Assembly (NCBI RefSeq): GCF_016861975.1
Contig: NZ_BOMB01000019.1
Location: forward strand, 1 to 64,000
Source: Actinocatenispora rupis
GTDB lineage: Bacteria > Actinomycetota > Actinomycetes > Mycobacteriales > Micromonosporaceae
Direction: 5' to 3'
DNA: 64,000 nucleotides
Part shown: positions 4,271 through 27,094 of the stretch, one piece after another
Layout: every line of letters begins with the position of its first letter
Position numbering within the stretch: the stretch's first letter is position 1
Program-made: the position numbers and the translations under genes
Notes under the pieces: generated by a model
Databases searched by the model: none
What the model was told of the DNA's origin: nothing
What the model saw: only the letters and a program-made list of their open reading frames with translations

Positions 4271-4464
4271 GGACCCATTGCCGTCCACGCTGTCCGGAGC
4301 CTGGGTGGAGTCGTGCCGCCCGGGCTGCGTCCTCGCCGACCGATGAACCTCGTGGCCATGGCCGCCGGTCAGGTCGACCTCGCCGGTGGCGGGCCGGCCA
4401 ACACCGGGCCGCCTCGGCCGATCAGGAGCCGCGCCGGCGTGCCGGGCTGGCTTAGGATCCGGGC

Positions 4465-8459: not shown

Positions 8460-11400
8460 TTAGGGTTTCGGGGTCCACCTGTGCAGCAGTTCGTGCCGCG
8501 CCAGATCTGTGAAGTTCTTGTGTCGTGACCAGGCGTCGAAGTCGCCGATGACGATGAGGCGTCGACGGGCTCGCGTGACGGCGACGTTGAGGAGGTTGGG
8601 GCGTTGGGCCGCCCAGTTGCGGGAACCCACCTGGCCGGACCCGGTACCCAAGACGAGGATCACGATGTCGGCTTCCTTGCCCTGGGTGGTGTGCACCGTG
8701 CCGTAGCGCTTGTTGCTGAGCGTCTCGCCCACCACCTTGCCGAGTCCGTGGACGACGTCGCGGAACGGGCTGATGACGAACACGGCATCGTTCAGCCGTC
8801 GCGCTCGCTCTGCGGCGTGGTCAGAATCAGGCCCATCGGGGAACTCTAGGCCGGCAGGCGCACGCTCCCGCTCGATCGCCTCGTCGATCCGGGCGCGGAT
8901 CCGGTCGAGGGTCGTTTCCCGGGCTGTACCTTCCTCGGGGTTCCACTTCTCGTCACCCGGTAGGGCGCGAACGTCCCACCACACACTGCGCTGCACCAAC
9001 GCGAAGTCATCCTGGTCTCGGTTGACCCCGTAGACCATCAGTCCGCCGTAGGCGATCGCGTTGCTGACGTCGAACATGAGGCGATCGCAGCGCCGGTGCA
9101 CCCGTAGCGGTGAACCAACCCAGATGCTCTCGTCCGTACTGCCTTCGCCGTGCGTGTCGATCCAGGTCCCGTACGAGTTGAGCCGGTCGGCCAGGGTCTG
9201 TACGGAGGCTGCGGACGGGGCCCACTGGCGATCCACCGCGAAATGGCCGGCCAGACGCCGCTGGCCGGTCCACGGGAGGGTGACTACCGGCTCAAGCTGC
9301 AGCGGGTCACCGACGATGACCGCTCGGCGGGCACGCCACAACGCGCCGACCACCTCCTGCGGGGCGGCCTGGCCGGCCTCATCGACGAACAACCAGCCCA
9401 GCGTCTCGCCGCCCAGTTGCGCGAACATCCGGCCGATCGACGCGAACGTAGTCGACACCACGGGTACGACCAGGAACAACATCTGCCAGGCGGCCAGCAC
9501 CGTCCCGGCGTCGAGATCCGTGGGCGCCTGCCCCTTCACCACATCCATCACCGCCTGCAGGTTCCTGCGCATGAGCCCAGGCGCGTTGGCGAGCAGCGCG
9601 CGGTGCAGGTCCAGGGCGGCGAGAAAGAGGTCGGAGCGTGCCTCGGCGAAAGCGGCGTCCATCCAGGGAGCCGACAGTTCCCGGGTCTCCATCGCCTGGT
9701 TGTCGTCGGGGGCCGCCCGCCACTCGGCGCCCGGCACAGACCGCCCCCATTGCTGTGTGGCCGAGCGCAGGCGGCGTTGTTCGGCCTCCCGTTCGCGGCG
9801 GCGATGAGTCACCTGCTGGCCGGCCTCGGCGATGGTGGCGACCTGTTTCGCGCAAGCCCGCTCGTACGCGGACAGTCGGTCCTCGGCGCGCCGCACGGCG
9901 GCCAACGCCTGATCCAAGTCTTCCTGTGCGGCGCGTACCGCGGCATGCCGCTCGGCTCGCTTGGACTCCAGTTCAGCGAGCCGGTCATCCGCCGCCTCCA
10001 GAGCCAACTGGTACGGCCGTAGCCCGGCCTCCCACTGCCGCATCGGCTCGCGGGTGAACAGCCGTTTGATCATGCCGGGCCGTTCGGCGTCGTAGGCGTG
10101 CCGCGCCGCCTCCGCCGCCCGTACGCCATCCTCCGCGTGGCGGACGGCGGTTTCGGCCTGCCCGACGCGGATTCGCACGGCGGACAGCGCGTCCCGGCGC
10201 CGGGCGTGCTCCGCCCTGTGGCGGGCGAGTTCGACCTCCGCGCGGCGCCGTTCCTGTTGTATGCGCAGCACCGTGTCACGGGCGTTGGACTCCCGGGCCA
10301 GCAGATCGTCCAGGATGGCGTCGGGGCCGTCGATCCGGCTCAGCAGATCTGCGATCTCCTGCCGCTCCGCGGCCAAGGTAGCCACCCGATCGTGGGCCCG
10401 CGTGAAGCGTTCGACTGCTTGTGCCCAGGTCGTCCGGCCCAACGGCGCGGCCGCGTCGGGGCTGTTGGTCGTGCCCTCACCGTTCTCCCCGCCGCGAGGG
10501 CCGCCTTCCTGCAGTTGCAACATCTTGTGCAGGCCGATGATCCGGCCGCCGCCGTGTGCCTCCGGTTGTGATCCGCCGTTGTCCCGGTCATGCTCGCCCC
10601 ACCAGAAGCGCTCGACGAACTCGGATCGGTTGCTGCGTCGCCCCAGACGCGCGGCGATCGCACCCCAGGCTTCCGACTTCAGGGCCAGAGTGGCGGGACC
10701 GGCAAGATAGTCAGCTCGCCCCCGCCACGCGTCGCCGATCGCCCGCGCACCGGGCACCTCCAGGGTGACGTTCTCCACCGCTCCGTTATTGGAGGAGGCG
10801 ACCACGATCTCGAAGCCCGTGAGCGCGGGGATCAGCGGGCGGATGGTGCGCGGATACGGTGTCCCGGCCGTCTCCTCCGTGCGCCAGGTCAGCGGCGTAC
10901 GGGCGAACGCGTCCTCAGGCCGCTTCAGCGTGGCCAGCCGCTCGGCGCGCCGGACCACGAGCGCCGCGACCAGGTCACGCAGCATGGTCGTCTTGCCGGT
11001 TCCGGGAGGCCCGTTGACGGCGTAGATGCCGGTATCTTGCCCGAGACTGGCCAGAATGCGGTTGACCGCGAACTGCTGGCTGAGCACCAGTGGCTTGTCG
11101 GTGTCTGCCGGCCACCGACCCGGCGGCATGTCCGACGGCTGAACACCCGCCAACACGACCTCGGGCATCCGCCGAAGGTCGAACCGGTTCATCGCATCCA
11201 GGTCGGCGTCGTCGCGCAGGTAGTCCAGCAGTGCGGTACCGGCCTGCTCGGCTTCGAGGGCACCGGCGACCCGCTCCAGGTCGTCGGCGTAGAAGCTGTT
11301 GAGGAATGTGTCACCGCTCGCCTCGTCCGCGTGTCTGGCCGCGACCTGATAGCTCTTTACCCGGATCGCGTTGGGTTGCAGAACGTCGCCGACGCCGAGT

Positions 11401-12290
11401 TGCTCGGCCACCCACCGGGTAATGGCCGCGAGGTCGTGCACGTCCAGAACCTTCGTACCCACATCGGGCGGCGGTGCTGTCGGCTTCGCCTCGCTCTGCT
11501 GCGGACTGTCTTCGCTGGTGCCCGCCTCCGCGTCGCTGCCCGACACCCGGTCGGCGATCCGGGCCGCGGCGGAGTCGATCAGGTCGCCGCCAACCCGCTC
11601 GATCACCTTCGCCGCCACCGCACCCGCTACAGGACCCAAAGGGGCGCCCACCGCCCCAGCGGCCGCCCCGAGCCCGCCTTTTGCCGCGCTGACCACGAGG
11701 CGCGACATCAAGCCGGCGACCGGACCGAGCCCCGAGCCCTGCTGCGCGTCGCCGGCAGCGGAACCGCGATCGACCTCGATCTTCCCGTCCCCAAGGTCCA
11801 GCAACTGCTGCAACAAACCGGTGGCGTCCACGTCGAAGCTGGTCAGCCAACGGTCGCTGTGAGGCCCGGGGTGCAACGTCTGGCCGACCGCCCAGGCACA
11901 CGCGGACAGGGTGACACTGTCCTTGATCAACAAACCGTCCTGGTTCACCGTGAAGCAGAGCATGGCGCTGTCTCCGCCGATCCGGCCATCCAGGTTCTGC
12001 TCGGAATCCGGGGCACGGAACTTCTGCAGCAGGACGTCGCGTACCTTGTCGACGCCAAAAATCCCGGCGTACACGGTGTGCTGCCAGACAAGCCCGCGCC
12101 GGGACCGGTGTCGGCCGAGAGGTGAGCCGGGCTCCCAGGGCAACGGCCGGTTCGGTCCCACGGCGAAGACCTTCTTGCCGGGATTCACCGGATCGACCTT
12201 CGGCGGCGAGAAGTACTCAACGGCTCGCCAGTAGCGCAGGATCTGCGCACGCCGACGCCGCTGCGCCTTCGACCGGTCGCCGGTTTCCAT
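8460..12290 (-). CDS. Large superfamily 1 (COG1112/UPF1-like) helicase with internal coiled coil
   Basis: This 1276-residue protein starts at ATG 12290, just after GGGGGG; the frame is open further upstream but without a better start. Residues 1 to about 400 are an unrecognised N-terminal region with a Gly/Ala-rich segment. Helicase motif I is NGPPGTGKTT with Lys433, motif II is VDEAGQAAP with Asp970, and motif III is VIVGDPLQLEPV. Motif V is VHTTQGKEADIVI and motif VI is LNVAVTRARRRLIVIGD near 1230. Between motifs I and II lies a coiled coil of about 200 residues (about 635-830), like the stalk in some DNA2/UPF1-type enzymes. It probably unwinds RNA or DNA. It has no partner in an operon. 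A second helicase of the same broad class lies 1.4 kb away in the 13.67-kb operon. Confidence 0.85.
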   Translation of the reverse strand: METGDRSKAQRRRRAQILRYWRAVEYFSPPKVDPVNPGKKVFAVGPNRPLPWEPGSPLGRHRSRRGLVWQHTVYAGIFGVDKVRDVLLQKFRAPDSEQNLDGRIGGDSAMLCFTVNQDGLLIKDSVTLSACAWAVGQTLHPGPHSDRWLTSFDVDATGLLQQLLDLGDGKIEVDRGSAAGDAQQGSGLGPVAGLMSRLVVSAAKGGLGAAAGAVGAPLGPVAGAVAAKVIERVGGDLIDSAAARIADRVSGSDAEAGTSEDSPQQSEAKPTAPPPDVGTKVLDVHDLAAITRWVAEQLGVGDVLQPNAIRVKSYQVAARHADEASGDTFLNSFYADDLERVAGALEAEQAGTALLDYLRDDADLDAMNRFDLRRMPEVVLAGVQPSDMPPGRWPADTDKPLVLSQQFAVNRILASLGQDTGIYAVNGPPGTGKTTMLRDLVAALVVRRAERLATLKRPEDAFARTPLTWRTEETAGTPYPRTIRPLIPALTGFEIVVASSNNGAVENVTLEVPGARAIGDAWRGRADYLAGPATLALKSEAWGAIAARLGRRSNRSEFVERFWWGEHDRDNGGSQPEAHGGGRIIGLHKMLQLQEGGPRGGENGEGTTNSPDAAAPLGRTTWAQAVERFTRAHDRVATLAAERQEIADLLSRIDGPDAILDDLLARESNARDTVLRIQQERRRAEVELARHRAEHARRRDALSAVRIRVGQAETAVRHAEDGVRAAEAARHAYDAERPGMIKRLFTREPMRQWEAGLRPYQLALEAADDRLAELESKRAERHAAVRAAQEDLDQALAAVRRAEDRLSAYERACAKQVATIAEAGQQVTHRRREREAEQRRLRSATQQWGRSVPGAEWRAAPDDNQAMETRELSAPWMDAAFAEARSDLFLAALDLHRALLANAPGLMRRNLQAVMDVVKGQAPTDLDAGTVLAAWQMLFLVVPVVSTTFASIGRMFAQLGGETLGWLFVDEAGQAAPQEVVGALWRARRAVIVGDPLQLEPVVTLPWTGQRRLAGHFAVDRQWAPSAASVQTLADRLNSYGTWIDTHGEGSTDESIWVGSPLRVHRRCDRLMFDVSNAIAYGGLMVYGVNRDQDDFALVQRSVWWDVRALPGDEKWNPEEGTARETTLDRIRARIDEAIERERAPAGLEFPDGPDSDHAAERARRLNDAVFVISPFRDVVHGLGKVVGETLSNKRYGTVHTTQGKEADIVILVLGTGSGQVGSRNWAAQRPNLLNVAVTRARRRLIVIGDFDAWSRHKNFTDLARHELLHRWTPKP

Positions 12291-12581
12291 CCGCCCCCCT
12301 GTGATCTGTCCAGACACCGCAGAAAGGCAAGAATGCCTCACAGCGTCAAGTAAGGCGCGGACAGCAAACAGCGCCGCGATGTCACCCCATGCCGACCTAC
12401 ACCGCCGCAATCCTCCTCGTCCGCGGCGACCAGATCGTCGCAGTGTTCGACGGGGAAGGCGCACACGCCGGCGACGCCCGGTTCGATCTGGCCGGGCTGC
12501 GCATCCTGGTAACCCCTGCCAGACGACACCGGGCGGAGTGCCTGTTTCGAGGGCGCAGTGGGCGTCGGGTGCCTGCCGTTT

Positions 12582-13330: not shown

Positions 13331-13669
13331 CGGACAGCGGGGCCGGACACGAGCAGGACGTCGGCTGGCCGGACCGCCAGGCAGCACAGGTGCAGCGGCT
13401 GCGTCGCGTGCTCCGGCCACCGTAGCGGTGGCCCGCCCGCACGGCCACACATCTTCCCGGCACCGACCTGGCCCGGCCGGCTGTACCTACACGACACGTT
13501 TTCGCGGTGTACCTGGCGGCTGCGCGGGATGTTCAGCCGCGCCGAGGCGGCATCCCGTACGGCAGGGGCGACAGGTCGACAGGCGGACGCGAGGTGCGGT
13601 AGCGGACGGTGTTGTCGATCGGTTGTAGGGTGGCGGAAAACCGGCACCGGGCGATCTCGGGAGGCCGCA

Positions 13670-16600
13670 TTGCCGTCGGGTTCGCTGGAGCGGATCGTGC
13701 GGGAGCTGTTCATCGGTCCGCACTCGACATACGGGCCGTACGAAGTCCCCGGAGGCGGCGACCTCGTCGTGTCGGAGCGGCTGCCCGGCCTGCTCTATGC
13801 GATCGACCTGATGAGCGGCGACGGCCGGCGCGAGGCGGTGACGCTGCTGATCTACCGCGGGGTGACCGGCCTCGGCGGGCAGATGTGGGACCAGCAGGCC
13901 AAGGTGCTGATCCGTACCACCGCGCTGGAGCATCCCGCGCTTCCCCGGGTACGCGAGGGCGCGTTCGTGGATGCGGAGACGCTGAGCGCCAAAGGGCTCG
14001 GCGACGAGGGCTTCGCTTTCGTGGTCACCGAGGGCGGGCCGACCGCGCTGGCCGACGAGGAGTCGGCGCTGCCGGTGCTGCGCGCCCAGCCGGTGTACGC
14101 GGTCCAGCAGTTCCACCTGCTCGCGGACGCGCTGGCGACGCTGCACGGCATGGGCGTGCTGCACCGCAACGTGTGGCCGGGCACCGTCCTGGTGTACCCG
14201 ACGGAGCCGGCGCGGCTGGTGCTGGCCGGGTTCGAGATGAGCGTCGTGGTGGCGAACCTGCTGCGCGCCGCGGACCAGGACGCCGCCCGCCGCCGCGACC
14301 TGGCCATGACCGCCTACCTCGATCCGGGCCGCCGGTCGCTGCGGTACCAGCCGCCGGAGCGGGCCGCGCTGCTGTTCGGTACCGGCCCGGTCGAGGTGGT
14401 GGAGAACGACCGCACCGACGTGTACGGGCTGGGTGTGACCGTCGCCGAGTGGTTCCTGGACCTGCCCGAGCTCGATCCGGCGCTGCCGCCGACGGAGGCG
14501 GTGGGCCGGTTCGGGGAGGAGCTGCGCCGCCGGATCCGCACCGCGGCGGACCTGCCGCTGGCGCTGCGCGAGCTGCTGGAGCAGATGGTCGCGCCCACGC
14601 CGGAGTCGCGCCTGGGCGCCGGTGAGGTCGTCGACCGGATCAGCCGGCGGTACGAGGCGCTCACCAACGTCTGGACCGCGCCGGACGCGCGGGACCTGCC
14701 GCACCTGCTGACCTTCATGCCACTGGAGCCGGCGTACCGGCTGCTGTACGAGTGGCGGTTCATCAGCTTCGACCCGGTGACCGCCGAGGGGCAGAAGGAG
14801 CTAGTGGAGCTGATCGAGAGCGACCTGAAGCACGGCCAGCTCGCGCACGCGCCGAACGGCGCGGATCCGTACCTCGCCTCGGGTGACCCGGAGCGCAAGC
14901 GGCTGGCGCAGCACCTGCTGATGGGGGAGCGCGCGGCCTGGTTCTGCCAGAAGTACCAGCGACGCACCGGGCTCGGCGCCACGTCCGCGCCGATGGACGA
15001 CGTGCTCGTGGTCAAGTACGTGGTGCCGCTGAACAGCGGCCGCGGCAGCCGGATCCGGGCGTCGGTGGCCCGCGAGCAGATCCAGGAACTGCCGCCGATC
15101 GAGGCGTTCCCGTCGACACCCACCTCCCCGCCGGCCAGCGAGCTGTCCGCGATGCGGCAGGGCCGCCCGTCGTGGGTACCGCTGATCGAGGCGGTGTCCC
15201 GGGTGGGCCGCCCGGCCGGCGAGGACCTGACCTACGAGCAGGCGTACGACTGGCTGCTGGAGTATCTGGGCGTCGAGCTGCAGGCGCGGGAGTACGCGTA
15301 CCGGGTGGACGGCGACGCGGACGCGCCCGGCACCCGGCGGCTGGTGTGGGACCGGCAGCGCGACGACGACCGGAAGACCAACAGCGCCATGGCCACGCTG
15401 TACGCCACGGATCCGCGCCGCCGCCCCGACTTCGGCGACTTCTTCTCGCTGGCCGAGTCCGAGGACGGCACCGCCGGGAAGCTGGAGGTGCTGGAGGACG
15501 ACCGGGGCCAGCCGCGGCAGACGCGCAACGCGCCGACCGTGCGTCTGCGCCCGGGCCGGTACGGCGACGACGTGATCGAGGTGACCGCCGCAGGCAGGAT
15601 CCCGGCGGTCGGCTGGATTCGCCCGGCCGGCGAGTTCGGCAGCCGCGTCTCGCTGAACCGGCAGTTCGACGCGCGATGGGCGCTGATGGCCAACCGGCTG
15701 CTGGTCAACCAGCTCCGCCGCCCGACCGGCATCGCCGGCCTTCGGCACCGGTGGAACGGCGTCGCGGCCGACCTCGGCGACGCCGCCGCGACCGTGGTCG
15801 ACATGCTCACGTTCAACCCGATGTTCGTCCTGCAGGGACCGCCGGGTACGGGCAAGACCGAGGTGGCGGCGCGCGCGGTCGACGCGTACCTGCGCGACGA
15901 GGGGCGCGGCGGGCGCGTCCTGATCTCGGCGCAGTCCAACTACGCGCTGGACAACCTGGCCGCCCGCGTACTCGGCCGGTGCGGGCTGCTCGCCGACGGC
16001 AAGCCGACCAGTACCGACGGCGAGGTGGTCGCGCTGCGCGTCACCAGCACCAGCGGGCAGGACCGCGTGGACGAGGCGCTGCGCGCGTTCCAGCTCGACG
16101 CGGTCGTCGCCCGCCGCCAGGACGAGCTCCGGCGGTACGCGGATCGCAAACTGCGCGAGGACCTGGAGCCGGCGACCCGGTCGATCGTGGCCGAGTGGCG
16201 GGAACTCGTTCGCCGGATCGGGCCGGAGCTGACCGACCGGATCCGCCGCGCGGCGAACCTGGTGTTCGCCACCTGCGCGACGGCGACTCCGGAACTGCTG
16301 GGTTCGGGGGCGGCCGACGCGTTCGACTGGGTGATCATCGAGGAGGCGGCGAAGGCGTGGCCGACCGAGCTGGCCATCCCGATGACCCGCGGCGTGCGCT
16401 GGACGCTGATCGGCGACCACCGGCAGCTCGGCGCGCACCGCGCCGACGACGTGCAACGGTTCCTCGCCGAGTGTGCCCTGTCCGGCCTGCCCGACCTGGC
16501 CGTGCCGGCCGGTCGGGCCGAGCAGTACGGGCAGGTGTTCAACCTGTTCGGCAGCTTCTTCGCGGACCGCCGGACGGGCGGGTTGGAGCGTCCCGTACGG

Positions 16601-17269
16601 CGGCTGTCGCGGCAGTTCCGCATGCGGGAGAACATCTGCGAGGTGGTCAGCCGCGCGTTCTACCCGGACGAGGCACGGGACGCGGCACCCGACGGGTTCC
16701 CGCACGGCATACTGACCACAGGCCGCGCGGACCGGCCGCACGGGCTGCGCCACCCCCGGCACCTGGCCGACCGATCCGTTGTCTGGCTGGACACGTCCGA
16801 GCGGGACGGCTGCGAGGACGAGGAGGCCTGGCGCAACGACGGCGAGGCGCGGCTCGTCGAGACGCTGGTCGGCCGGTTCGAACCGCAGCCGGCGCCGGGA
16901 CGGCACGGCTTCTCCGACCAACCGCTCGCCATCCTCACCCCGTACAAGGCGCAGCTCGACCTGTTCAACCAGTCGGACGCCACCCGCGGGCTGGCCAGCA
17001 CGGTGCACGCGTACCAGGGGCGCGAGGCCGACATCGTGCTCGTGTCGCTGGTACGCAGCACCCGGCGCGGCCCGGAGACCTGGCACAACCTCGGGCACCT
17101 GGTGAAACCGGAGCTGGTGAACGTGATGCTGTCCCGGGCCAGGAACCTGCTGGTCCTCGTCGGCAACTACCCGCACTTCGCCGACAGCGGCCGGGGTACC
17201 TGCTGGGAGGCGGTGTGCGGCCTGCTCGCCGGGCACGTGCTGCCGATCGGGGAGGTGGTGGACGCGTGA
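13670..17269 (+). CDS. Pseudokinase-SF1 helicase fusion, MkoA-like
   Basis: This is a 1199-residue protein. I chose TTG 13670 because GGGAGG lies just upstream; GTG 13697 is the alternative. Residues about 30-330 form a Ser/Thr-kinase fold, but the catalytic loop HRD reads HRN (Asn167) and DFG reads GFE (187-189). The PPE and DVYGLGVTVAEW motifs of the C-lobe remain, so it is probably a pseudokinase. A SF1 (COG1112-type) helicase follows. Its motifs are QGPPGTGKTE (Lys729), VIIEEAAKAW (Glu891-Glu892), LIGDHRQLG, LSRQFRMRENI, TVHAYQGREADIVLVS and VNVMLSRARNLLVLVGN (about 1150). The kinase-helicase plan is that of MkoA in type I Mokosh defence. It overlaps the next gene by four bases (GTGA). 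Confidence 0.85.
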   Translation: MPSGSLERIVRELFIGPHSTYGPYEVPGGGDLVVSERLPGLLYAIDLMSGDGRREAVTLLIYRGVTGLGGQMWDQQAKVLIRTTALEHPALPRVREGAFVDAETLSAKGLGDEGFAFVVTEGGPTALADEESALPVLRAQPVYAVQQFHLLADALATLHGMGVLHRNVWPGTVLVYPTEPARLVLAGFEMSVVVANLLRAADQDAARRRDLAMTAYLDPGRRSLRYQPPERAALLFGTGPVEVVENDRTDVYGLGVTVAEWFLDLPELDPALPPTEAVGRFGEELRRRIRTAADLPLALRELLEQMVAPTPESRLGAGEVVDRISRRYEALTNVWTAPDARDLPHLLTFMPLEPAYRLLYEWRFISFDPVTAEGQKELVELIESDLKHGQLAHAPNGADPYLASGDPERKRLAQHLLMGERAAWFCQKYQRRTGLGATSAPMDDVLVVKYVVPLNSGRGSRIRASVAREQIQELPPIEAFPSTPTSPPASELSAMRQGRPSWVPLIEAVSRVGRPAGEDLTYEQAYDWLLEYLGVELQAREYAYRVDGDADAPGTRRLVWDRQRDDDRKTNSAMATLYATDPRRRPDFGDFFSLAESEDGTAGKLEVLEDDRGQPRQTRNAPTVRLRPGRYGDDVIEVTAAGRIPAVGWIRPAGEFGSRVSLNRQFDARWALMANRLLVNQLRRPTGIAGLRHRWNGVAADLGDAAATVVDMLTFNPMFVLQGPPGTGKTEVAARAVDAYLRDEGRGGRVLISAQSNYALDNLAARVLGRCGLLADGKPTSTDGEVVALRVTSTSGQDRVDEALRAFQLDAVVARRQDELRRYADRKLREDLEPATRSIVAEWRELVRRIGPELTDRIRRAANLVFATCATATPELLGSGAADAFDWVIIEEAAKAWPTELAIPMTRGVRWTLIGDHRQLGAHRADDVQRFLAECALSGLPDLAVPAGRAEQYGQVFNLFGSFFADRRTGGLERPVRRLSRQFRMRENICEVVSRAFYPDEARDAAPDGFPHGILTTGRADRPHGLRHPRHLADRSVVWLDTSERDGCEDEEAWRNDGEARLVETLVGRFEPQPAPGRHGFSDQPLAILTPYKAQLDLFNQSDATRGLASTVHAYQGREADIVLVSLVRSTRRGPETWHNLGHLVKPELVNVMLSRARNLLVLVGNYPHFADSGRGTCWEAVCGLLAGHVLPIGEVVDA

Positions 17270-20200
17270 GAGAAGCCACGGTGTACGTGCCGTGCGACGC
17301 GTTCAGCGTGCGGGTGCAGCTGGGCTACGGCGGGCTGTCGCCGATCGAGCAACTGGTACTGCGGGCGCTCGCCGCCGCCCCCGGCGCGGCCGGCGCCGAC
17401 GACATCGTCGGGCTCTTCGGCCTCGGCCGGCAGGTCACCGAGGGCGTCATCTTCGACCTGCTGCGGGCCCAACACGTGGTGGTCGACTTCGGTACCGGCA
17501 CGGTTCGCCTCACCGAGCAGACCCGGCGTCGCGTCGAGGCCGGCACTCTCGACACGCTGCCCGGCGCGGAGCTGATCGAGGACCGGTGCGAGATCATGAT
17601 CGACCGGCTGACCGGGCACGTGCTGCCGGTACGGTCCGGCCGCCCGGACGTACGGCTGGTGGTACCGGTCGCGGGCAGCGCGGTGCGGATCACCGACGCC
17701 AGCCAGGCCCAGCTGCTCGGCGCGGTGACCGCCGTACTGGAGCGCGACCTGCCCGACCCGGAACGCGACCGGCAGCGGTCGGGGCGACCCCGGCGGGCGC
17801 TGTCGGCATACCTGGCGCCGTCCGACCTGCAGCTGCTGGCGAGCCGACGCTGGCTGCCGCTGACCGTGCACCTCGGCTGGGACACCGACGCCGACCGCCT
17901 GCAGGTACGGGTGGAGGATCCGGTGCTGCCTGCCCGGCACCGGGAGCTTGCCGCGGCGCGGCTCGCGCAACTCGCCGACGACCGGCCGGAGGACGAGTTC
18001 GTCCGGCGGATCCGGTCGCTGGCGCGGGGCGGCGTGACCGCCGCGCCGACGTTCGACGAGTACCTGGACCAGCTCCGGCACCGGGTCGACCGGCTCGCCG
18101 ACACCCTGCCGGGCACGCGCCGGCAGACGCACACCGAGCTGCGCCGGATCGCCGAACGTGCCCGCGTACTGCTGGAACGACGGATCGAGACGGAGCTGAC
18201 CGTGACGCCGGTGCTCGGTACCGGCCGGCACGACGAAGTACTGCGCGAGCTGGTGGGCTCCGCGCAGCGCCAGGTGGTGATCGCCTCCCCGCACCTGGAC
18301 CGCGCCGGGCTCGGTGGCGCGCTGCCGTCGCTGCGTGACGCGCAGCAGCGCGGCGTGCAGGCAGCGATCCTGTGGGGGAGAACGCACCGGGACCGGCTCG
18401 AAGCTGCCGCGGCGAACGTGCTGACCGACCTCGGCGGCCGGCACAACGCTGGCCGCATGCTCTGGTACGACAGGTCCTGCAAGATCAACACGTCGATGGT
18501 GGTCTGCGACGACCGGCGGGCCCTGATCGCCGGCTGGGACCTGCTCAGCGGACGCGGCCGCGACACCGAACCGCTCGGCCTGCTGCTCGACGCGCCCGGC
18601 CCCGGCGCGTGCGCGCCGATCGAGTCGATGCTCGACTGGCTGGCCGTGTCGTTCCCCGACCACCGCATCGCCACGGCGCTCTACACCCGGCACACCGACT
18701 TCGGTACCGCCGACCGGCAGCCCGCGACGTCACCGCTCGCCGATCTGGCGACGATGCCGGAAACGCCGCGCGAGGACGAGGACGACTCCTTCGTGTTCTG
18801 GCAACAGGACTGGCAGCGCTACGCCGCCCGGCTCGACGAACTCGCCGCCGGCCGTACGCTGCCCGCGGTGCGCGTTGTGGCCGACGGCGAGCACCGAGCG
18901 CTGCTGTGGTCGGCGATCCGGGGCAGCGCCCGCCGGCTGGTCGTCGCCTCCCCACGACCCCGGGAGGCGGTCGTCACGCACGGGCTGGTCAACCAGCTCC
19001 GGGCGCGTGTCGCGGCCGGCGTCGCGGTGCGCATCGCCACCCCGGCGCGCGACGAGCCGGCCACCCAGACCCTGCGGCAACTCGCCGGCCAACTGCGTAC
19101 CGACCGGTTCAAGGTGCCGCGCCGCGTCCCGCTGGCCCGCGCCGTGATCGGCGACGACGACGTGGTCCTCGGCGGCTTCGACCCACTGTCCGACGGGCCC
19201 GGCATCGGCGGACGTGGCCCCCGCCGCTCCTTCCTCGGCGTACTGATCCGTGGCGCGGCGATCGCCGACGAGCTGGCCGCCACCCTGGAAGGCGCCGACG
19301 CCCCACCGCCACCGCCGCCACCGCCGGCATCCGGGGCGAGCGCGGATCCGGGCGCCGGGCTCGGCCTGGTGGGGCGGGCGCACCGCCTGCGCACCGCGTA
19401 CACCGACCATGCGGGGCGCGTCCCGATCGCCGTGCTCGACGCCGAGCTGACGTTGCCCGACCCGTGGCCGATCGTCGCCGAGCTGCGCGCCGGCGGGGCA
19501 CCGACCGCGCTGGTACGCCAAGCGGCGAGCCGATGCCTCGCGCGGTGCTCCACGTACGACGCGCCGGCCGTCGCCGGCCAGGTACGAGACCTGATCCGCG
19601 ACCTGTGGGACGACCAGGACTTCCTGCCCGCCGCGCTACTGCGCCCATTGGTCGCCGACCCAGACTGGCGGCCCCGGCCGGCCCTGTCCGCCGTCGCGGC
19701 GACCCGCCACGACGAGCAACTGCCCGACACGTTCACCGACGCGGCGCTCGACGGGCCGCTGCCGGCCGAATCCCGCGCCCTGGCTTGCGTCGGTGCCGCC
19801 GGCCTGCTGCTCGGTATCGACGGCGACCAGGCCGTACTGCGAGAGGCGCTGGAACTGCTCGACGACCTCGACGCACCGTGGGACGAGCTGGTCCGCGCCG
19901 CGCTCGACCACCCGGTCTCCGCAGCACCGCTGCCGATGTCGGCGATCCGCGCCCGGCTCGCCGACACCCGCCAGCACCGCCGTACCGACGCCGGCTGGGC
20001 CGGCCTGACCGCCGCGATCGAACACGCCCGGCAGTACCGGTTCGACTTCGACTCCGGGATCCGGACCCACCAGCACCTGTTCGCCGACGACGGTCCGTTG
20101 GGTCGGCTCGGCCGCATCGCCGCGACCCGCGCAGCCACCGACCTCGCCGCCTGGCTCGCCCGCCAGCCGTCCGACGTGGGCACCCTGCTCGACCGGGCGA

Positions 20201-20496
20201 CCCGCGCCGCCGGGCCCGGCACAGAACTGCTGCACAGCCGGCGCCGCGCGCGGTACCTGGACCGGCTGCGCGCCGTACTGACCGCCGCGCGCCGGGTCGC
20301 CTCCGCCGCCTCCGCCGCCGACTCCGACCCGGCGCTGGACCACCGGCTGCTCGCCGCCCGCACCACGGCGCTCCGGCTGTCCACGCACTGGCCGGCGCTG
20401 ACCTCGGCCGCCGACGCGCTCGACGCGCCCGAGGCGCCGCTGGCCCGCGCCGCGCTCGCCGATCTGTCCGTCGTCGTGGACTGGGGGATGCGATGA
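17266..20496 (+). CDS. Degenerate phospholipase-D-like protein, MkoB-like
   Basis: This 1076-residue protein starts at GTG 17266, inside the stop of the helicase gene. Two PLD-type repeats are visible. The first runs over residues about 325-440 (RQVVIASPHLDRAGLG then MVVCDDRRALIAGWDLLSG). The second is near 530-670 (RRLVVASPRPREAVV then AVIGDDDVVLGGFDPLS). The HxKxxxxD signatures read N408-T-S410-x4-D415 and L623-A-R625-x4-D630, so His and Lys are lost in both while the fold and Asp are kept. A poly-proline linker (about 678-690) separates a helical C-terminal region of about 380 residues. Catalysis by the usual PLD mechanism seems unlikely; nucleic acid binding or a scaffold role is inferred. 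Operon position matches the PLD partner of Mokosh helicases. Confidence 0.8.
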   Translation: MREATVYVPCDAFSVRVQLGYGGLSPIEQLVLRALAAAPGAAGADDIVGLFGLGRQVTEGVIFDLLRAQHVVVDFGTGTVRLTEQTRRRVEAGTLDTLPGAELIEDRCEIMIDRLTGHVLPVRSGRPDVRLVVPVAGSAVRITDASQAQLLGAVTAVLERDLPDPERDRQRSGRPRRALSAYLAPSDLQLLASRRWLPLTVHLGWDTDADRLQVRVEDPVLPARHRELAAARLAQLADDRPEDEFVRRIRSLARGGVTAAPTFDEYLDQLRHRVDRLADTLPGTRRQTHTELRRIAERARVLLERRIETELTVTPVLGTGRHDEVLRELVGSAQRQVVIASPHLDRAGLGGALPSLRDAQQRGVQAAILWGRTHRDRLEAAAANVLTDLGGRHNAGRMLWYDRSCKINTSMVVCDDRRALIAGWDLLSGRGRDTEPLGLLLDAPGPGACAPIESMLDWLAVSFPDHRIATALYTRHTDFGTADRQPATSPLADLATMPETPREDEDDSFVFWQQDWQRYAARLDELAAGRTLPAVRVVADGEHRALLWSAIRGSARRLVVASPRPREAVVTHGLVNQLRARVAAGVAVRIATPARDEPATQTLRQLAGQLRTDRFKVPRRVPLARAVIGDDDVVLGGFDPLSDGPGIGGRGPRRSFLGVLIRGAAIADELAATLEGADAPPPPPPPPASGASADPGAGLGLVGRAHRLRTAYTDHAGRVPIAVLDAELTLPDPWPIVAELRAGGAPTALVRQAASRCLARCSTYDAPAVAGQVRDLIRDLWDDQDFLPAALLRPLVADPDWRPRPALSAVAATRHDEQLPDTFTDAALDGPLPAESRALACVGAAGLLLGIDGDQAVLREALELLDDLDAPWDELVRAALDHPVSAAPLPMSAIRARLADTRQHRRTDAGWAGLTAAIEHARQYRFDFDSGIRTHQHLFADDGPLGRLGRIAATRAATDLAAWLARQPSDVGTLLDRATRAAGPGTELLHSRRRARYLDRLRAVLTAARRVASAASAADSDPALDHRLLAARTTALRLSTHWPALTSAADALDAPEAPLARAALADLSVVVDWGMR

Positions 20497-22946
20497 CCGA
20501 TCCGGTACGCTCCGCCGCCCTGCGCTGGCCGGACCGCTGGCGGCTGCCGGACCTGCTCACCGCGCTCGCCGGCGACCCACCGGACGACACCGAGCTGGCC
20601 CGCGCCGTGCTGGCCGGCTTGGCGGACCCGCCCGCCGCCCCCACCGACGCGGTACGCCGGCTCGCCGCCGCCGGCGAGTTCACCTGCGCCGAGACGCTCG
20701 ACGTCAACGCCGACGCGATCGACGAGGCCCGGCAGCGGTACCGGCGCGACACCCAGCACCGGATCGCGTTGCTGTCTGCCCGCGCCCACCAGGTCGGGTT
20801 GACCGAGCCGCCGCCACCAGGCATCCTCGCCGCCGCCGAGCGCCGCAGCGCCGACGCCGACCTCATGCTCGACGAATTGACGGCCCGCGTCGACGCCGCC
20901 GCCCGCGCCCAGGCCGAGCGGCTGACCACCGACGCGGCACGCCTCGCCGGTACCGACCACCCCGACTGGCTCGCCACCGTACGCGAATGCCTGGCAGCCG
21001 GTGAGATCGTCGCCGCGCAACGGATGGTCGCGCACGGCCCGTCCTCGACCGAGGCGCTCGACCCGCTGGCTGTGCCGCGCCCGAGCCCCTGGCCGTACGT
21101 CGGGCAGCCGCTGCCGCACGTCCTCGCCTGGTACGACGACCCGGACGAAGGCACCGCCGGCTTCCGCGACCGCTGGCTGCCGCCACCCGCCGACCGCGAC
21201 GGCTGGCGACTGGTCACGGCCCTGCGCGCGGTGGCCGACGAGGTCACCGCCGACACGGTGACAATCCTGGCCGGCGCGGTGGACGCGCTGTGCGGCGCCG
21301 ACGGGATCGCGCACCGGGCACGGCCGATGCCCGGCGGGTACCTCGCCTCGCTCGGCGGGCTCGTGGACGGGCGGCTGTCCCGCCTGGCGTTGCGGCGCAG
21401 CACCCTGCTGTGGGTGCCGACCGATCCCGGCCCGCTACCCGCCTCCGGCGACGAACTGATCCTTGTGTACGGACCGGCCCCCGCCGACCCGCCACTCGGC
21501 CGGCCGGTGGCGTACCTGCCGGAGACCGAGCTGTTGCGACTGGTCGCCCCGCACCGCGGCAGCGCGCCCTCCCCGCGGCACCGGCTGATCAACCTGCTGC
21601 GCATCGTGTACCGGCAGCTCCCGGTCGACACCGTCTGGCCGCGCCGGTCCCGATCGCGTGGCGAAGGGCTCGACCGGGCCCGCGACGACCTGCGCTGGAC
21701 GTTCGACCTGCTCGGCGGGTACGCGCCGAGCGCCGTCGTCGAGGGCCTGCTCCACGAGACGGCCGGCCACCCGGCGCTGCTGCTCGCCGCGCTGCGCACG
21801 CTGGTACCCGCGCCAGGCGAGCGGGCGCCGATCACCGCCGACGACCTGACCGACTGGCGTACCCGGCCGCAGAACCGGCACCGGCAGCGGGAAGCGCTCA
21901 CCGACCTGCTCCGCGGCGCACCCGACGCCCGCGTGCTGCTCGACGCCGTGGTCTGGGCGCACGGCGACGACCCGACCGCGATGTTCACCGCCGCCGGGGC
22001 GCGCGAGCTAGTCGCCGAACTGGTCGCGCCGACCGAACTTAGCCCCTCGTTCAACGTCGACGTGGCGCTGGCCGCGGCGGTCGCCACCGGCCTGATCCGC
22101 CGAACCACCCCGGACCGCTACGTCCTGGCCGGGCCTGGAGTCGCCAGCGCCGCGACCGCGCCGGGCATCGACCTGGTCGACGCGATACGCACCGAGGTGG
22201 ACACGCTGCGCGAGACCGCCGACCGGACCGAACACGCCGTCCGGGCCCGCGCGCAGGAGGCACTGATCCGGGGTCAGAGCCACCTGATCGCCAACTGGGT
22301 CGCGGCGCGCGCCGGCCTGCACCGCACCCTGCTTGAAGCCGGCGACGACCTACCCGACGACGTGCGCCGCCAGATCGACACCCGCATCGCCGAGCTCGAC
22401 GCCAAGCTCAACGACGAGCCGCCCTACTGGGACACCTCCGACGAGCGCTGGCTAACCCCCGACCGACACGACCTCGCCGCCGTGCTACGTGCCACGCACA
22501 GCCAGCACCAGGCCGCGTGCGGCTCCGCCGTCGACATCCGCCTCGACTGCCCCGACGACCCGCACCCGGTGTACCTGCCGGAGCACGTGCTGCGCATCGC
22601 ACTGGACAACCTGGTACGCAACGCGGTCGACGCGCTCGACGACCGGCCCAACGCGGCCCCCGTCGTGGAACTGCGCCTCACCCGGGAAGCCGCCAGCGAA
22701 CGGTTCCCGGACGGCGCGTTCGCGGTGCACGTCGAGGACGGCGGCGCCGGCATACCGGACGGGCACCGGGACCGACTCTGGTCGCCGATTCCCTTCAGTA
22801 CCAAGGGAACCACCGGGCAGGGGCTCACCGACGCGCGGTGGAGCGCCGAACACTGCGGCGGCACGCTGAGCCTCGCGGACGCACCCAGCCGGCACGGCGG
22901 CGCCCATTTCGTACTGCGGCTGTCGGCGTCACTGCTCGTCGACTAG
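20493..22946 (+). CDS. Soluble GHKL ATPase / histidine-kinase-like protein
   Basis: This 817-residue protein starts at ATG 20493, overlapping the previous stop (ATGA). It has no membrane segment. The N-terminal 560 residues are unrecognised, helical, and end in a winged-helix-like stretch (VALAAAVATGLIRRTTPDRYVL). A helical segment then carries RGQSHLIANWVAARAGL, where His597 could be a phospho-accepting histidine of a DHp hairpin. The C-terminus is a clear HATPase: N box LDNLVRNAVDAL from 704, G1 VEDGGAGIPDG near 748, then FSTKGTTGQGL and GGAHFVLRL. It likely signals to the receiver protein encoded convergently. The two genes overlap by 18 bases at their 3' ends. Both the signal and phosphotransfer are inferences. 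Confidence 0.8.
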   Translation: MTDPVRSAALRWPDRWRLPDLLTALAGDPPDDTELARAVLAGLADPPAAPTDAVRRLAAAGEFTCAETLDVNADAIDEARQRYRRDTQHRIALLSARAHQVGLTEPPPPGILAAAERRSADADLMLDELTARVDAAARAQAERLTTDAARLAGTDHPDWLATVRECLAAGEIVAAQRMVAHGPSSTEALDPLAVPRPSPWPYVGQPLPHVLAWYDDPDEGTAGFRDRWLPPPADRDGWRLVTALRAVADEVTADTVTILAGAVDALCGADGIAHRARPMPGGYLASLGGLVDGRLSRLALRRSTLLWVPTDPGPLPASGDELILVYGPAPADPPLGRPVAYLPETELLRLVAPHRGSAPSPRHRLINLLRIVYRQLPVDTVWPRRSRSRGEGLDRARDDLRWTFDLLGGYAPSAVVEGLLHETAGHPALLLAALRTLVPAPGERAPITADDLTDWRTRPQNRHRQREALTDLLRGAPDARVLLDAVVWAHGDDPTAMFTAAGARELVAELVAPTELSPSFNVDVALAAAVATGLIRRTTPDRYVLAGPGVASAATAPGIDLVDAIRTEVDTLRETADRTEHAVRARAQEALIRGQSHLIANWVAARAGLHRTLLEAGDDLPDDVRRQIDTRIAELDAKLNDEPPYWDTSDERWLTPDRHDLAAVLRATHSQHQAACGSAVDIRLDCPDDPHPVYLPEHVLRIALDNLVRNAVDALDDRPNAAPVVELRLTREAASERFPDGAFAVHVEDGGAGIPDGHRDRLWSPIPFSTKGTTGQGLTDARWSAEHCGGTLSLADAPSRHGGAHFVLRLSASLLVD

Positions 22947-23882
22947 CCGACGCACCGTGTCCAGTAGGTCCGACAGCGGCGCCCCACCGTCGTGCTTGTG
23001 GAACACGGTGGCCAGGTCGTATCGGTCGAGCAGGTCGGACATGTCGCCGGCCTGCCGGTCGGCGGTGATCAGCATCCGCGGAAACGGGCTGCCGCGCAGC
23101 GCGTCCAGGATCGCGAAGCCGCTCTCGTCGACGGCCGACCCGAGATGCCGGTCGACGATCGCCAAATCGAACCGCAGCGGCCCGGCCGCCCACAGCCGCT
23201 TCCACTCGGCGATGCCACGCACCACCGTGCAGTCGTACCGGAACAGCATCATCGCGATGTCGTCACCGTGCTCGTCATCGACCACCAGGATCCGCTTCGC
23301 CTCCGGCCGCGCGATTGGATCGGGCCCGGCCCGCAATGCGCCCAGCGCCGGGTCACCCGGGAACATGTCGAGGAAGTCGGGCAGCGCGCCGATCCGCGCC
23401 CGTACTGCGTCGGGCACCGCCGCGATCCGCTCCACCAGCGCGTCCCGCGCGCGGAACACCGGCTGCCAGAACCCCGCGTCAAGCCGGTCGTGGAGCACCC
23501 GCGGATCGTCGCGCCACAGCTCCAGCAGCGCGTGCGCCTCGTCCGCCGACACGTCCCCGCCCAGCTCACCAACCCGCTGCTGGAAGTACGCTGCGTCGAC
23601 ATCGTCCCCGGACATCCCGGCGAGCCAGTAGTAGCCGTCGTCGTGCCGGACGTCCAGGCCGCACTTGCGGAGCTTGCTCACCTGGCCCTGCACCGCGTTC
23701 CGCGTCACGCGGCCGTCCCACAGCATCCTGTGCAGCGCCGTCACGTGCCGGCGCCGACCGGCCGGCAAGGCCAGGATCGACAGCAACGCAGCCGGAACGC
23801 CCCGCACCGTGTGGAAGGTCGCCCCGTTGCGCACCTCGACCGGGCCCAGCAGACGGACCCGAAACCTCTCCCACGCCGGCAT
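22929..23882 (-). CDS. Inverted response regulator: winged helix/BTAD-like N-terminus, receiver C-terminus
   Basis: This is a 317-residue protein. Residues 1-85 look like a SARP/OmpR-type winged helix (VRLLGPVEVRNG, then NAVQGQVSKLRK and DDGYYWLAG). Residues 90-190 are helical and BTAD-like. Residues about 195-317 are a complete receiver: acidic pair in LVVDDEHGDD, phospho-acceptor Asp244 (LAIVDRHLG), Thr in MLITADR and Lys in VFHKHD. The order is opposite to usual response regulators. The ATG at 23882 follows GGGGG with no spacing, and a TAGATT box lies six bases upstream, so a leaderless transcript is possible. It is convergent with the GHKL gene and probably controls the operon. Confidence 0.8.
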   Translation of the reverse strand: MPAWERFRVRLLGPVEVRNGATFHTVRGVPAALLSILALPAGRRRHVTALHRMLWDGRVTRNAVQGQVSKLRKCGLDVRHDDGYYWLAGMSGDDVDAAYFQQRVGELGGDVSADEAHALLELWRDDPRVLHDRLDAGFWQPVFRARDALVERIAAVPDAVRARIGALPDFLDMFPGDPALGALRAGPDPIARPEAKRILVVDDEHGDDIAMMLFRYDCTVVRGIAEWKRLWAAGPLRFDLAIVDRHLGSAVDESGFAILDALRGSPFPRMLITADRQAGDMSDLLDRYDLATVFHKHDGGAPLSDLLDTVRRLVDEQ

Positions 23883-24219
23883 CCCCCAAATCTAGAGGCT
23901 CCGTCCAAGCCCCCGCTCCACCGCGACCGGCGCTCGTGGCAGGCGAAAACTCGGGTGGCGCCGCAGCCCGGCGCACGTGGCCGACGTGGTACGCACGCCG
24001 GCGGCGCCGGGGGCCGTGGCTTCGGCCCCGCCGACGTTCCCGGCTCGCTGACCGCGCGCTGAATCTGCGGTACGCAACGCCTGTCGACCCGCCGGTCCGG
24101 CCCGCGTACGTCAGCCGACGTTCAGCGCGCGACCCCGTTCCACCGTCAGCCGCGACGCCTTGACTGGAAGTCGAACGGGAACCACCCCGGATCCCGTCCG
24201 ACAGCGAGGGAAACCAGCC
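23883..24219. other. Intergenic region, no gene seen
   Basis: Nothing coding is convincing here. It contains the upstream region of the inverted response regulator (TAGATT just before its ATG) and a GGGGCC/GGCCCC hairpin at about 24010-24029. GCGAGGGAAACC before the next gene may serve as its ribosome site. Confidence 0.4.
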
Positions 24220-24773: not shown

Positions 24774-25055
24774 TCAGGGGCCGCTCGCGTCGAGGGAGTG
24801 GTAGTGGTCGTAGAGGCGGCAGGACACCGCGACCTCGTCCTGTGGCAGTAGGTGGGGCTCTACCGGAGCCGTGAACTCGGTGATGACGCGGGTGTCGCTG
24901 TCGATCTGGATGTCGGTGACGCCGCGCCAGAATGGTTCGGCCGGATCGACCGCGCGCATCTCGGTCAAGAGATCCAGGAGGCCCTGGGCGTTGGCCCCGG
25001 TGCGGATCGGTATCCGCCGGCCCGGCGTGTCCAGCTCGGCGAGGTGGCCGGTCAC
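24774..25055 (-). CDS. Small hypothetical protein coupled to the hydrolase-methyltransferase
   Basis: This 93-residue acidic protein is of unknown function. Its ATG at 25055 overlaps the stop of the upstream fusion gene (ATGA), so it is translationally coupled. The sequence has regular alternating beta-strand and helix character (RRIPIRTGANAQGLLDLL, then VTDIQIDSDTRVITEF and DEVAVSCRLYDHYH). It resembles a small soluble alpha/beta fold. No metal-binding or catalytic motif is obvious. Being last in the unit, it may help or regulate the fusion enzyme, but this is inference. Confidence 0.6.
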   Translation of the reverse strand: MTGHLAELDTPGRRIPIRTGANAQGLLDLLTEMRAVDPAEPFWRGVTDIQIDSDTRVITEFTAPVEPHLLPQDEVAVSCRLYDHYHSLDASGP

Positions 25056-26521
25056 CCCCGGCGGAACTCGGCGCGCCAGCGGTCACCGACCCGGTCCACC
25101 CGTACGGCCGTGAGCCCGCCGTCGGCGAACGCGTCGATCTCGGCGCGGGTCAGCGGCCACGGCGGGCCCGCCGGGTCGGGCTCGTCGGCCGCGGCGGAGA
25201 CGACGAGCAGGGTGCCGCCGGGCGCGACCAGCTCGCCGACCCGCCGGGTCGCCTCGGCCCGCACCGACCGCGGCAGCGCCTGCACCGTCACCACCTCCAC
25301 CACCAGCTCGTACGCCCCGCGCCAGGCCGCCGGGAGGTCGAACAGGTCGGCGTGCACGTACCGCACGACGGTGCCGGGGTGGCGTTCGCGGGCGAGCCGG
25401 ACCGCGGTGTCGGCCACGTCGAACGCGGTCGTCTCGTACCCGAGGGACGCCACGAACTCGGCGTCTGCACCGAGCCCGGCGCCGACCACCACCGCGCGCC
25501 GTCCGGTGCCGTCGCGGCCGGCGGCCCATTCGGCGAGCAGCGGCTGCGGCGAGTCCCGGTCCCAGGGCATCGCGACCGCGCCGTCGTCGGCCGCCGAGTA
25601 CAGCCGGTCGAACCAGGCCGTGGGCGCCTCCCCGTCCGCGCGCGCCTGCGCCGCCAGCCGGTCCGCCTGGTACGGCCAGCCGCCCGAGGTGTGCCGCAAC
25701 AGCGCCGGCACCAACCGGTCCCAGTACTCCCGGGGCGGGGTGCGGTGGCCGAGGCCGGGCATCGGCAGCAGCTCCGCGTCGTACCGCGCGGCCAGCGCCT
25801 CGCCGTGCGGGAACGGGAACAGCGGGTCCTCGGTGCCGTGCACGACCAGCGTCGGCACCGGCCCGGTCGGCCCCGCCGCCGGCTCGTCGTCGTCCACGAG
25901 CAGCCCGTGGTTCACCAGGCTCGCCGCCATGTCCCGGGTCCGGTCCACCACCCGCCCCGCGTACTCCCGGGTCGCGTCCACGTCCACCCCGCCGGACCCC
26001 TCGTACGCCGCGTGCAGGGCGACGAGGTGTTCGACCATCGCCGCGCGGTCGGCGGGATCCGGCGCGGACGGCGGATCGGCGAAGAACCGGCGCAGCTGTT
26101 CCGTCGGCGGCGGCAGCCCCGGCACGTGGTCGATCGGGCTCGTCGACAGCAACGTCAGCGACAGCACCCGGTCGGGCGCGAAACCGGCGATGCTCTGCGC
26201 CAGCCCGCCGCCCATCGAGATGCCGACCAGGTGCGCCCGCTCGATCCCCAGCGCGTCCAGCACGCCCAGCGCGTCGTTCGCCAGATCCCGCCCCGAGTAC
26301 GCCGGGGCGCCGGCCGGGTAGCTCGTGGACCGGCCCGTGTCGCGATGGTCGTAGCGCACCACGTACCGCAGGCCGTCGGCGAGTCGTACGCAGAGGTCGT
26401 CGTCCCAGGAGTCCATCGACGCGCCGGAGCCGGCGATGAGCAGGATCGCCGGATGCTTCGGCCGTCCGAAGGTCTCGACGCACAGCTCGACCGCGCCGAC
26501 CCGCACCATCCGTTCGCCCAT
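25052..26521 (-). CDS. Alpha/beta hydrolase-SAM methyltransferase fusion
   Basis: This 489-residue two-domain protein starts at ATG 26521 (MGERMVRVG). Residues 1 to about 285 are an alpha/beta hydrolase: oxyanion strand PAILLIAGSGASMDSW, nucleophile elbow GISMGGG (Ser), acid HGTEDPLFP and catalytic His in PGLGHRTPP. Residues about 300-489 are a class I methyltransferase: SAM loop AVVVGAGLGADAEF, acidic strand TAFDVADTAVRLAR, then VRYVHADLFDLP and GGTLLVVSAAADEPD. Separate genes for these two enzyme types are common; the fusion suggests sequential action on one ester-containing metabolite. The product and substrate are unknown. Confidence 0.85.
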   Translation of the reverse strand: MGERMVRVGAVELCVETFGRPKHPAILLIAGSGASMDSWDDDLCVRLADGLRYVVRYDHRDTGRSTSYPAGAPAYSGRDLANDALGVLDALGIERAHLVGISMGGGLAQSIAGFAPDRVLSLTLLSTSPIDHVPGLPPPTEQLRRFFADPPSAPDPADRAAMVEHLVALHAAYEGSGGVDVDATREYAGRVVDRTRDMAASLVNHGLLVDDDEPAAGPTGPVPTLVVHGTEDPLFPFPHGEALAARYDAELLPMPGLGHRTPPREYWDRLVPALLRHTSGGWPYQADRLAAQARADGEAPTAWFDRLYSAADDGAVAMPWDRDSPQPLLAEWAAGRDGTGRRAVVVGAGLGADAEFVASLGYETTAFDVADTAVRLARERHPGTVVRYVHADLFDLPAAWRGAYELVVEVVTVQALPRSVRAEATRRVGELVAPGGTLLVVSAAADEPDPAGPPWPLTRAEIDAFADGGLTAVRVDRVGDRWRAEFRRG

Positions 26522-26577
26522 CCGCCCAGCCTCGCACAGGGGTACGACAGCCACCGCCGCATCGCCGGGTCGGCGCG

Positions 26578-26985: not shown

Positions 26986-27094
26986 GGATGTCTCCTCGGT
27001 CGTACGGGTGCCCGGGTCCACGTTCCCAGCGGCGCGCGCCGGGTGCACGTGCGCGCACCGCCGACCACCCGACGGTGGACGCGTCGTACCCGGG

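Follow-up and report, generated by a model that had tools for sequence, protein, structure and literature searches.

A Mokosh-related helicase locus of Actinocatenispora rupis joined to a predicted His-Asp relay

Mokosh type I is defined enzymatically by a Ser/Thr kinase and a phospholipase D (PLD) nuclease. Is a locus in which such a pair is joined by two signalling genes still a system of this kind, or might it report what it senses by phosphate transfer? The question is raised by four genes, here called A, B, C and D, at positions 13670-23882 of a 64,000-nucleotide stretch of Actinocatenispora rupis DNA (assembly GCF_016861975.1, contig NZ_BOMB01000019.1, positions 1 to 64,000 of the forward strand; hereafter the window). 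A preceding interpretation made from the letters alone (the sequence-only reading) had proposed a Mokosh-type pair joined to a signalling pair. The four genes were confirmed at the following positions.

13670..17269, plus strand: gene A, MkoA-like protein of 1199 amino acids, predicted N-terminal pseudokinase and UPF1-type superfamily 1 helicase (PADLOC, Pfam, structure matches)
17266..20496, plus strand: gene B, MkoB-like protein of 1076 amino acids (PADLOC PDLC03922)
20493..22946, plus strand: gene C, predicted histidine kinase of 817 amino acids without recognised membrane or sensor domain (Pfam, profile-profile comparison)
22929..23882, minus strand: gene D, predicted SARP-type winged helix/BTAD region and receiver, 317 amino acids (profile-profile comparison, structure matches)

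Genes A, B and C are co-directional and, as had been stated, overlap by four bases each (GTGA at 17266-17269 between A and B; ATGA at 20493-20496 between B and C). D lies on the opposite strand, convergent with C, with an overlap of 18 bases. The start codon of A is TTG at 13670 with GGGAGG in front; an alternative in-frame ATG is located at 13529, and the alignment of relatives begins at about 13670. The proposed joining of a Mokosh-type pair to a signalling pair was upheld: the suggested search of defence-system models assigned A to MkoA and B to MkoB in PADLOC, and C and D hold the residue set of a His-Asp relay. The locus is interpreted here as a variant related to Mokosh whose sensor, a helicase with pseudoenzyme modules, would signal via that relay, with a probability of roughly one half.

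Gene A matched the MkoA model PDLC03920 over residues 39-1177 (E 2.3e-230, 766 bits); the same model scores five classic A proteins at 661-819. The description of A as a kinase-fold/COG1112-type helicase stood for the helicase, which was recognised by Pfam (AAA_11, E 6e-29; AAA_12, E 8e-26) and matched SMUBP-2/UPF1 structures (best E 9.4e-19) and, weakly, MkoC (E 2.5e-14). It had to be amended for the kinase, whose motifs are degenerate and whose catalytic aspartates are lost (Pkinase 0.01, under the cut-off).

14114..14635, plus strand: kinase-like region of A, residues 149-322, HRD changed to HRN and DFG to GFE (alignment; Pkinase below cut-off)
15788..17167, plus strand: helicase core of A, residues about 707-1166, with GPPGTGKT, EEAA, GDHRQL and SRAR (Pfam, alignment)

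The window A was aligned with its relatives from loci of the same long type (21 loci including the window) and with nine classic proteins, out of twelve comparison loci (ten short Mokosh-type loci, L075-L084; L085, with a helicase fragment; and L216). Both the HRD and the DFG aspartate are replaced in all 21 long-type proteins, and both are kept in four of the nine classic ones. The predicted A protein is thus devoid of the catalytic kinase residues of Mokosh type I. Short-type MkoA proteins of L080, L081, L082 and L216 also lack the two aspartates, so that a pseudokinase MkoA is not confined to the long clade. The helicase motifs are retained in the window and in the other A proteins of D-bearing loci that reach them; motif VI is SRAK, SRAQ or SRGR, not SRAR, in five of the eight A proteins of loci without D.

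Gene B matched the MkoB model PDLC03922 over residues 5-674 (E 1.7e-119, 399 bits) and carries about 400 residues beyond it. Pfam gave PLDc_2 at only 0.089, under the cut-off, and the B profile found no sequence match in the PDB. B had been called a two-repeat PLD-like protein; its homology to MkoB bears this out, while both PLD motifs proved degenerate in the window.

18454..18510, plus strand: degenerate PLD motif region 1 of B, with N/S in place of H/K (alignment)
19099..19185, plus strand: degenerate PLD motif region 2 of B, with L/R in place of H/K (alignment)
19288..20493, plus strand: C-terminal extension of B, about residues 675-1076, common to long-type loci (outside the MkoB profile)

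Six of the 21 loci (L071-L074, L107 and L209) encode a B protein that has kept His and Lys in both repeats, and the other 15, window included, do not; the L106 protein has one of the four residues left. On the tree of A proteins at least four changes between intact and lost are needed. The HKD active sites of Mokosh type I are predicted to be absent from the window B. As the helicase motifs are kept and the kinase and PLD motifs are lost, the window pair is best seen as a predicted active helicase with two pseudoenzyme modules. A plain Mokosh mode of action, in which A unwinds RNA and B cuts it by non-HKD residues or with another nuclease, appears distinctly improbable. It would agree with the intact helicase motifs of the window and with the six loci having intact HKD in both repeats, five of which have D, but neither window repeat retains His or Lys, the sites are degenerate in most long-type loci, and the kinase aspartates are lost in every one of them. 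In three of the 21 loci (L071, L073 and L074) the B extension runs on into C as a single frame.

Gene C had been presented as a GHKL ATPase. The ATPase was confirmed (HATPase_c, E 5.7e-11); that C is only an ATPase was not, since the H-box of a histidine kinase is present.

22281..22283, plus strand: predicted H-box histidine of C, His597 (invariant in 13/13; hhalign to kinase H-box)
22590..22925, plus strand: HATPase_c domain of C, residues 700-811, with N box, DGGAG and GQGL (Pfam, alignment)

Thirteen C proteins were compared by hhalign with 12 kinases, namely those with a canonical H-box by pattern among the kinases of 18 loci found with the C profile. The alignment spanned 231 columns (E 4.5e-41), and in it His597 coincides with the H-box histidine of the kinases. 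Where ordinary kinases match the C profile, the match mostly sets in at about position 560-600, ahead of the ATPase. The C proteins of all 13 D-bearing loci have this histidine; the H-box has the form HxxxN, with Asn at +4 in 10/13, which is not the commonest form. With its H-box histidine, N box and glycine boxes, C is a predicted histidine kinase, and its large N-terminal region is without recognised fold. In the seven D-less loci with an ATPase domain no conserved histidine was found in the H-box region of C (the C genes of L194 and L195 were assigned by position and ATPase domain, not by the C profile). The third gene of L107 (526 amino acids) showed neither a C-profile match nor an ATPase in its sequence. 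When 396 genomes of the phylum were searched with the C profile, only the window matched at full length and the other hits listed covered the kinase part only, a weak negative given that scoring was limited to two candidates per genome.

The convergent gene D had been taken for a receiver-containing regulator, and fold matches in the PDB together with invariant residues indicate a complete receiver.

22938..23297, minus strand: receiver domain of D, residues about 196-315 (PDB receivers, invariant residues)
23151..23153, minus strand: predicted phosphoacceptor aspartate of D, Asp244 (invariant in 13/13)
23313..23861, minus strand: predicted DNA-binding/BTAD region of SARP type in D, about residues 8-190 (hhalign, AfsR structures)

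The window D alone gave no Pfam match; Response_reg was found in five of 13 D members at E up to 0.5, and in none above the cut-off among the ten shown singly. The model of the receiver matched PDB receivers with a target-normalised TM of up to 0.76. It was of moderate confidence and the sole usable part of the prediction (AlphaFold2), the SARP part being poor. Asp203, Asp244 and Lys296 are invariant in the 13 D proteins, all of which have Ser/Thr at the fourth strand (by eye); the acidic pair, phosphoacceptor Asp, Ser/Thr and Lys of receivers are thus predicted to be complete. For the N-terminal part, 12 D proteins (L070 omitted) were compared by hhalign with 12 of 17 BTAD matches of the same genome, resulting in a probability of 99.3, an E-value of 3.7e-19 and a score of 104. 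The reversed control gave 0.06, with a score of 2.6, and the best score in 20 column shuffles was 6.6. The D profile matched both AfsR structures and receiver structures. D is accordingly a predicted response regulator of unusual build, in which the winged helix and BTAD part typical of SARP regulators is followed by a C-terminal receiver.

In one locus, L070, this N-terminal part is exchanged: bDLD3, a bacterial Death-like domain, replaces the SARP part of D (E 1.4e-14), and no DNA-binding match was obtained. A TCAD9-bDLD3 protein is encoded one gene away (2889-4460; the bDLD3-receiver protein itself is at 5261-5998), and these two proteins are the only bDLD3 matches in the L070 genome (E 0.01). 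D would therefore be an output adaptor and not only an autoregulator. Death-like/TCAD neighbours were seen only in L070, among the few neighbours of other loci that were checked.

A word search detected a 12-mer upstream of both A and D.

13574..13585, plus strand: 12-mer GGTCGACAGGCG before A, weak candidate operator (word search)
24078..24089, minus strand: second copy of the same 12-mer, before D (word search)

The window holds two copies at up to one mismatch, both exact, where 2.2 are expected by chance. An operator common to A and D was rejected as not significant, as 24 of 300 shuffles share an equally long word.

These data bear on the main rival explanation, according to which C and D would do no more than set the expression level of A and B, as a conventional two-component switch that senses some other stress, while A and B defend alone as plain Mokosh. 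The DNA-binding part that profiles assign to D, the word common to both upstream regions and the four-base overlap of B and C, as in one operon, would all suit such a switch. The 12-mer is not significant, however, and the window B is without a PLD active site. The fusions of B with C, the retention of C in relatives without D, and the L070 D with its Death-like domain speak against the switch as the whole story, and it is considered unlikely.

The conservation of the four-gene order, which the sequence-only reading had proposed to examine, was found in other actinobacteria: D lies beside C in 13 of the 21 long-type loci, so that the set recurs more often than by chance and resembles a defence-type sensor that would report by phosphate transfer. 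The loci were collected as follows. Of 250 sampled genomes of the family, 146 gave some match to the MkoB model, mostly partial or weak, and seven, own genome included, gave a full-length match of at least 300 bits. The six other full-length loci, all of which hold A, B, C and D, and eleven lower-scoring ones were taken. Profiles built from the seven family loci were used to search the order (5/298 genomes) and the class (4/394), own genome counted in both, as well as a second actinobacterial family (11/249; ten long-type and one short-type); these samples overlap and sampling is uneven. A profile search of genome contigs added L106 (Streptacidiphilus sp. ASG 303) and L107 (a metagenome-assembled genome labelled Hyphomicrobiales). 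Among the 80 contig matches listed only these two cover the kinase-like part; 78 were helicase-only and were dropped, as was L207, which has the same genes as L106.

D is present in the window, L069-L074, L106, L193 and L208-L211 and was not found in L107, L194-L196 and L212-L215. It is convergent with the operon in 11/13 loci; in L073 and L074 it follows the operon in the same orientation. No C or D match was obtained in the twelve comparison loci, of which L216 spans only about 600 bases past B. The sample includes three further Actinocatenispora genomes, which contain neither a full-length MkoB nor a full C, and the set is therefore accessory and patchy. No copy of A was detected in plasmids (three of 72,556 records matched, over 45% of the query, and were other helicases) or in phages (none matching at 1e-20 in 50,697 records).

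In a tree of 30 A proteins the 21 long-type proteins formed one clade (100/100 support), in which the window A groups with L069, L106 and L070 (100/99). Long branches meet between two groups of classic proteins, which is a caveat of this tree. The 13 A proteins of D-bearing loci formed no supported clade, being split off together by a single branch in 30% of bootstrap trees. These loci represent fewer than 13 independent lineages, as L210 nearly duplicates L208 and L073 is closely related to L074. Some loci show irregularities of their own: a frame of 582 amino acids lies between A and B in L210 (10995-12743, minus strand) and is absent from the near copy L208, A has a frameshift at about 6430-6480 of L069, and B is split over two frames at about 7800-8040 of L213, the latter two by assembly error or decay.

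Relatives also differ in the genes that accompany the set.

L071 2038-3537; L072 14511-15782; L208 14267-15682: S1-domain protein
L209 3741-5366; L210 2170-3549; L211 3960-5666: S1-domain protein
L194 559-4401; L195 15011-18862; also L196 and L212-L215: WD40-STAND-type protein, directly upstream of A

The six loci with an S1-domain protein beside the set are exactly one 100/100 clade; the Pfam S1 match is shown for five. By eye only, the N-terminus of this protein resembles a nucleoside-deoxyribosyltransferase-type domain. Related large genes lie directly upstream of A in seven D-less loci (all but L107), and the A proteins linked to them form a supported clade (100/100). Pfam identified WD40 and AAA/NACHT-type domains in the two scanned, and similarity extends across the seven. 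A caspase-like start of these proteins was noted by eye only; no caspase model was among the rows listed and no PDB match was found. An LCAT-like gene precedes the WD40-STAND gene in L214 (by Pfam), and sequence resembling it occurs in L195 and at the L196 edge.

The UPF1-type helicase and the S1 RNA-binding neighbour of six relatives would fit a function outside defence, in a regulated pathway by which multicellular actinobacteria survey RNA or respond to stress. Such a function is judged very unlikely, as against it stand the rare and patchy occurrence in all four samples and the presence, among the neighbours, of the bDLD3/TCAD9 protein and of WD40-STAND proteins, which are known from conflict systems. 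A more far-reaching proposal is tentative and held with some doubt: the locus may represent not a Mokosh subtype but a separate immune-signalling class, in which a sensor made of a helicase-pseudokinase and a (pseudo-)PLD protein would be bound to a GHKL protein and feed interchangeable outputs. These would be (i) a relay to a SARP-type factor, as in the window; (ii) a relay to a Death-like adaptor with a partner of the same domain, as in L070; (iii) a relay beside an S1-domain protein, in six loci; (iv) a WD40-STAND protein after loss of the relay, in seven loci.

The favoured interpretation remains the Mokosh-related variant with a relay. From the homologies, the loss and retention of motifs, the co-conservation, the fusions of B with C and the exchanged output of D, we infer sensing, phosphotransfer, a direction of the signal and a role in defence, which may be pictured as follows. 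A and B would make up a complex of Mokosh descent for the surveillance of nucleic acid, with an intact helicase motor in A. The kinase-like module of A and the PLD-like module of B would bind or serve as scaffolds and have no catalytic role, and the C-terminal extension of B would hold C. This complex would bind or track nucleic acid and, on meeting foreign or abnormal nucleic acid, cause C to autophosphorylate on His597, from where the phosphate would pass to Asp244 of D. With the SARP-type output of the window D, the alarm would become transcription of the own operon and/or of other genes. In other lineages it would reach other output modules, D acting as the adaptor in L070.

Several points weigh against this interpretation. 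No observation favours signalling from A and B to C over the reverse direction. In the window no effector candidate was recognised beside D among the frames scanned by Pfam, no known sensor domain was recognised in the first 560 residues of C, and the predicted structure of C is poor and uninformative (predicted local distance difference test score of 44). Four of the 13 D proteins carry additional parts beyond those recognised. The co-occurrence of the histidine of C with D is perfect, yet their loss amounts to one independent contrast on the tree. Finally, D-less relatives keep the ATPase of C without the histidine, so that the ATPase should have some role outside phosphotransfer.

If the interpretation holds, a Mokosh-type pair could act as sensor and scaffold, with the kinase site gone, the PLD site often gone, the helicase kept and a relay attached, and phosphate on D would be a simple read-out of what Mokosh-type helicases detect. 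The exchange of a DNA-binding part for a Death-like domain, with the receiver kept, would link two-component systems to apoptosis-like immunity in bacteria.

Surroundings of the set in the window were surveyed by a Pfam scan that covered part of its genes. A second UPF1-type helicase (8460-12464, minus strand, 1334 amino acids) is divergent from A and MkoC-like at residues 716-1318, where it matches just the helicase portion of the MkoC model (E 2.9e-58). Its conservation with the system was rejected, as it was not found beside the 20 other long-type loci. An Hsp70-like protein (4465-6480, plus strand; HSP70, E 1e-22) is likewise not conserved with the system, and the three small genes before it gave no PADLOC match. 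A single frame at 25052-27058 (minus strand) combines alpha/beta-hydrolase and methyltransferase domains. The location in a mobile-element-rich zone, as had been claimed, is weakly supported: one transposase domain was found by Pfam (IS4/5-type, 3966-4346), a second remnant was recognised by eye only (Mutator-like, 36271-37064), and no tRNA was found.

Comparison with known systems places the locus closest to Mokosh type I. The two PADLOC models are matched by A and B along nearly their whole length, A is directly followed by B, and B is of PLD-like ancestry; by homology the pair belongs to the MkoA-MkoB family. It differs by the longer B, the lost kinase aspartates, the PLD motifs lost in the window, the separate and fully supported long-type clade, and the presence of C and D where type I is a two-gene operon without signalling genes. 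Because the kinase and PLD features are absent from the window, the locus is a Mokosh-related variant and not a plain member. In view of the same losses, the locus belongs to a diverged clade whose enzyme domains are, as far as motifs can tell, partly turned into scaffolds, and is more than a Mokosh system to which a switch has been added. With Mokosh type II (MkoC) the locus shares the weak match of the A helicase part; here helicase and PLD are in separate proteins, and the adjoining MkoC-like helicase at 8460-12464 is a separate gene. A PLD-like domain is listed for Mokosh I and II in PMC10952713. Mokosh is reported to degrade viral transcripts, and a comparison has been drawn between its proteins and the piRNA pathway of eukaryotes (PMC11291487 for both). 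The literature searched, whose coverage was limited and included parts of PMC10952713, PMC12926258 and PMC11291487, yielded no histidine kinase as a partner of Mokosh.

AfsR/SARP regulators resemble D in its N-terminus, as judged by AfsR structures and hhalign, and differ in that D adds a C-terminal receiver. We know of no named SARP in which a SARP part is followed by a C-terminal receiver, no search aimed at this layout having been made. Detocs has a kinase/receiver layout and is not known to contain a helicase or a PLD protein. It is described as a defensive two-component system in PMC11249213 and is the nearest working analogue, being a defence-type operon that signals through a His-Asp relay; in the locus described here the receiver bears a SARP part or bDLD3 and not a PNP-type effector. 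Receiver domains have also been reported as effectors in bDLD3/TCAD conflict systems (PMC7159879 and PMC8195603), with which the L070 locus shares the bDLD3 common to D and its neighbour. In those accounts the receivers occur without histidine kinases, whereas here a predicted kinase gene adjoins the receiver.

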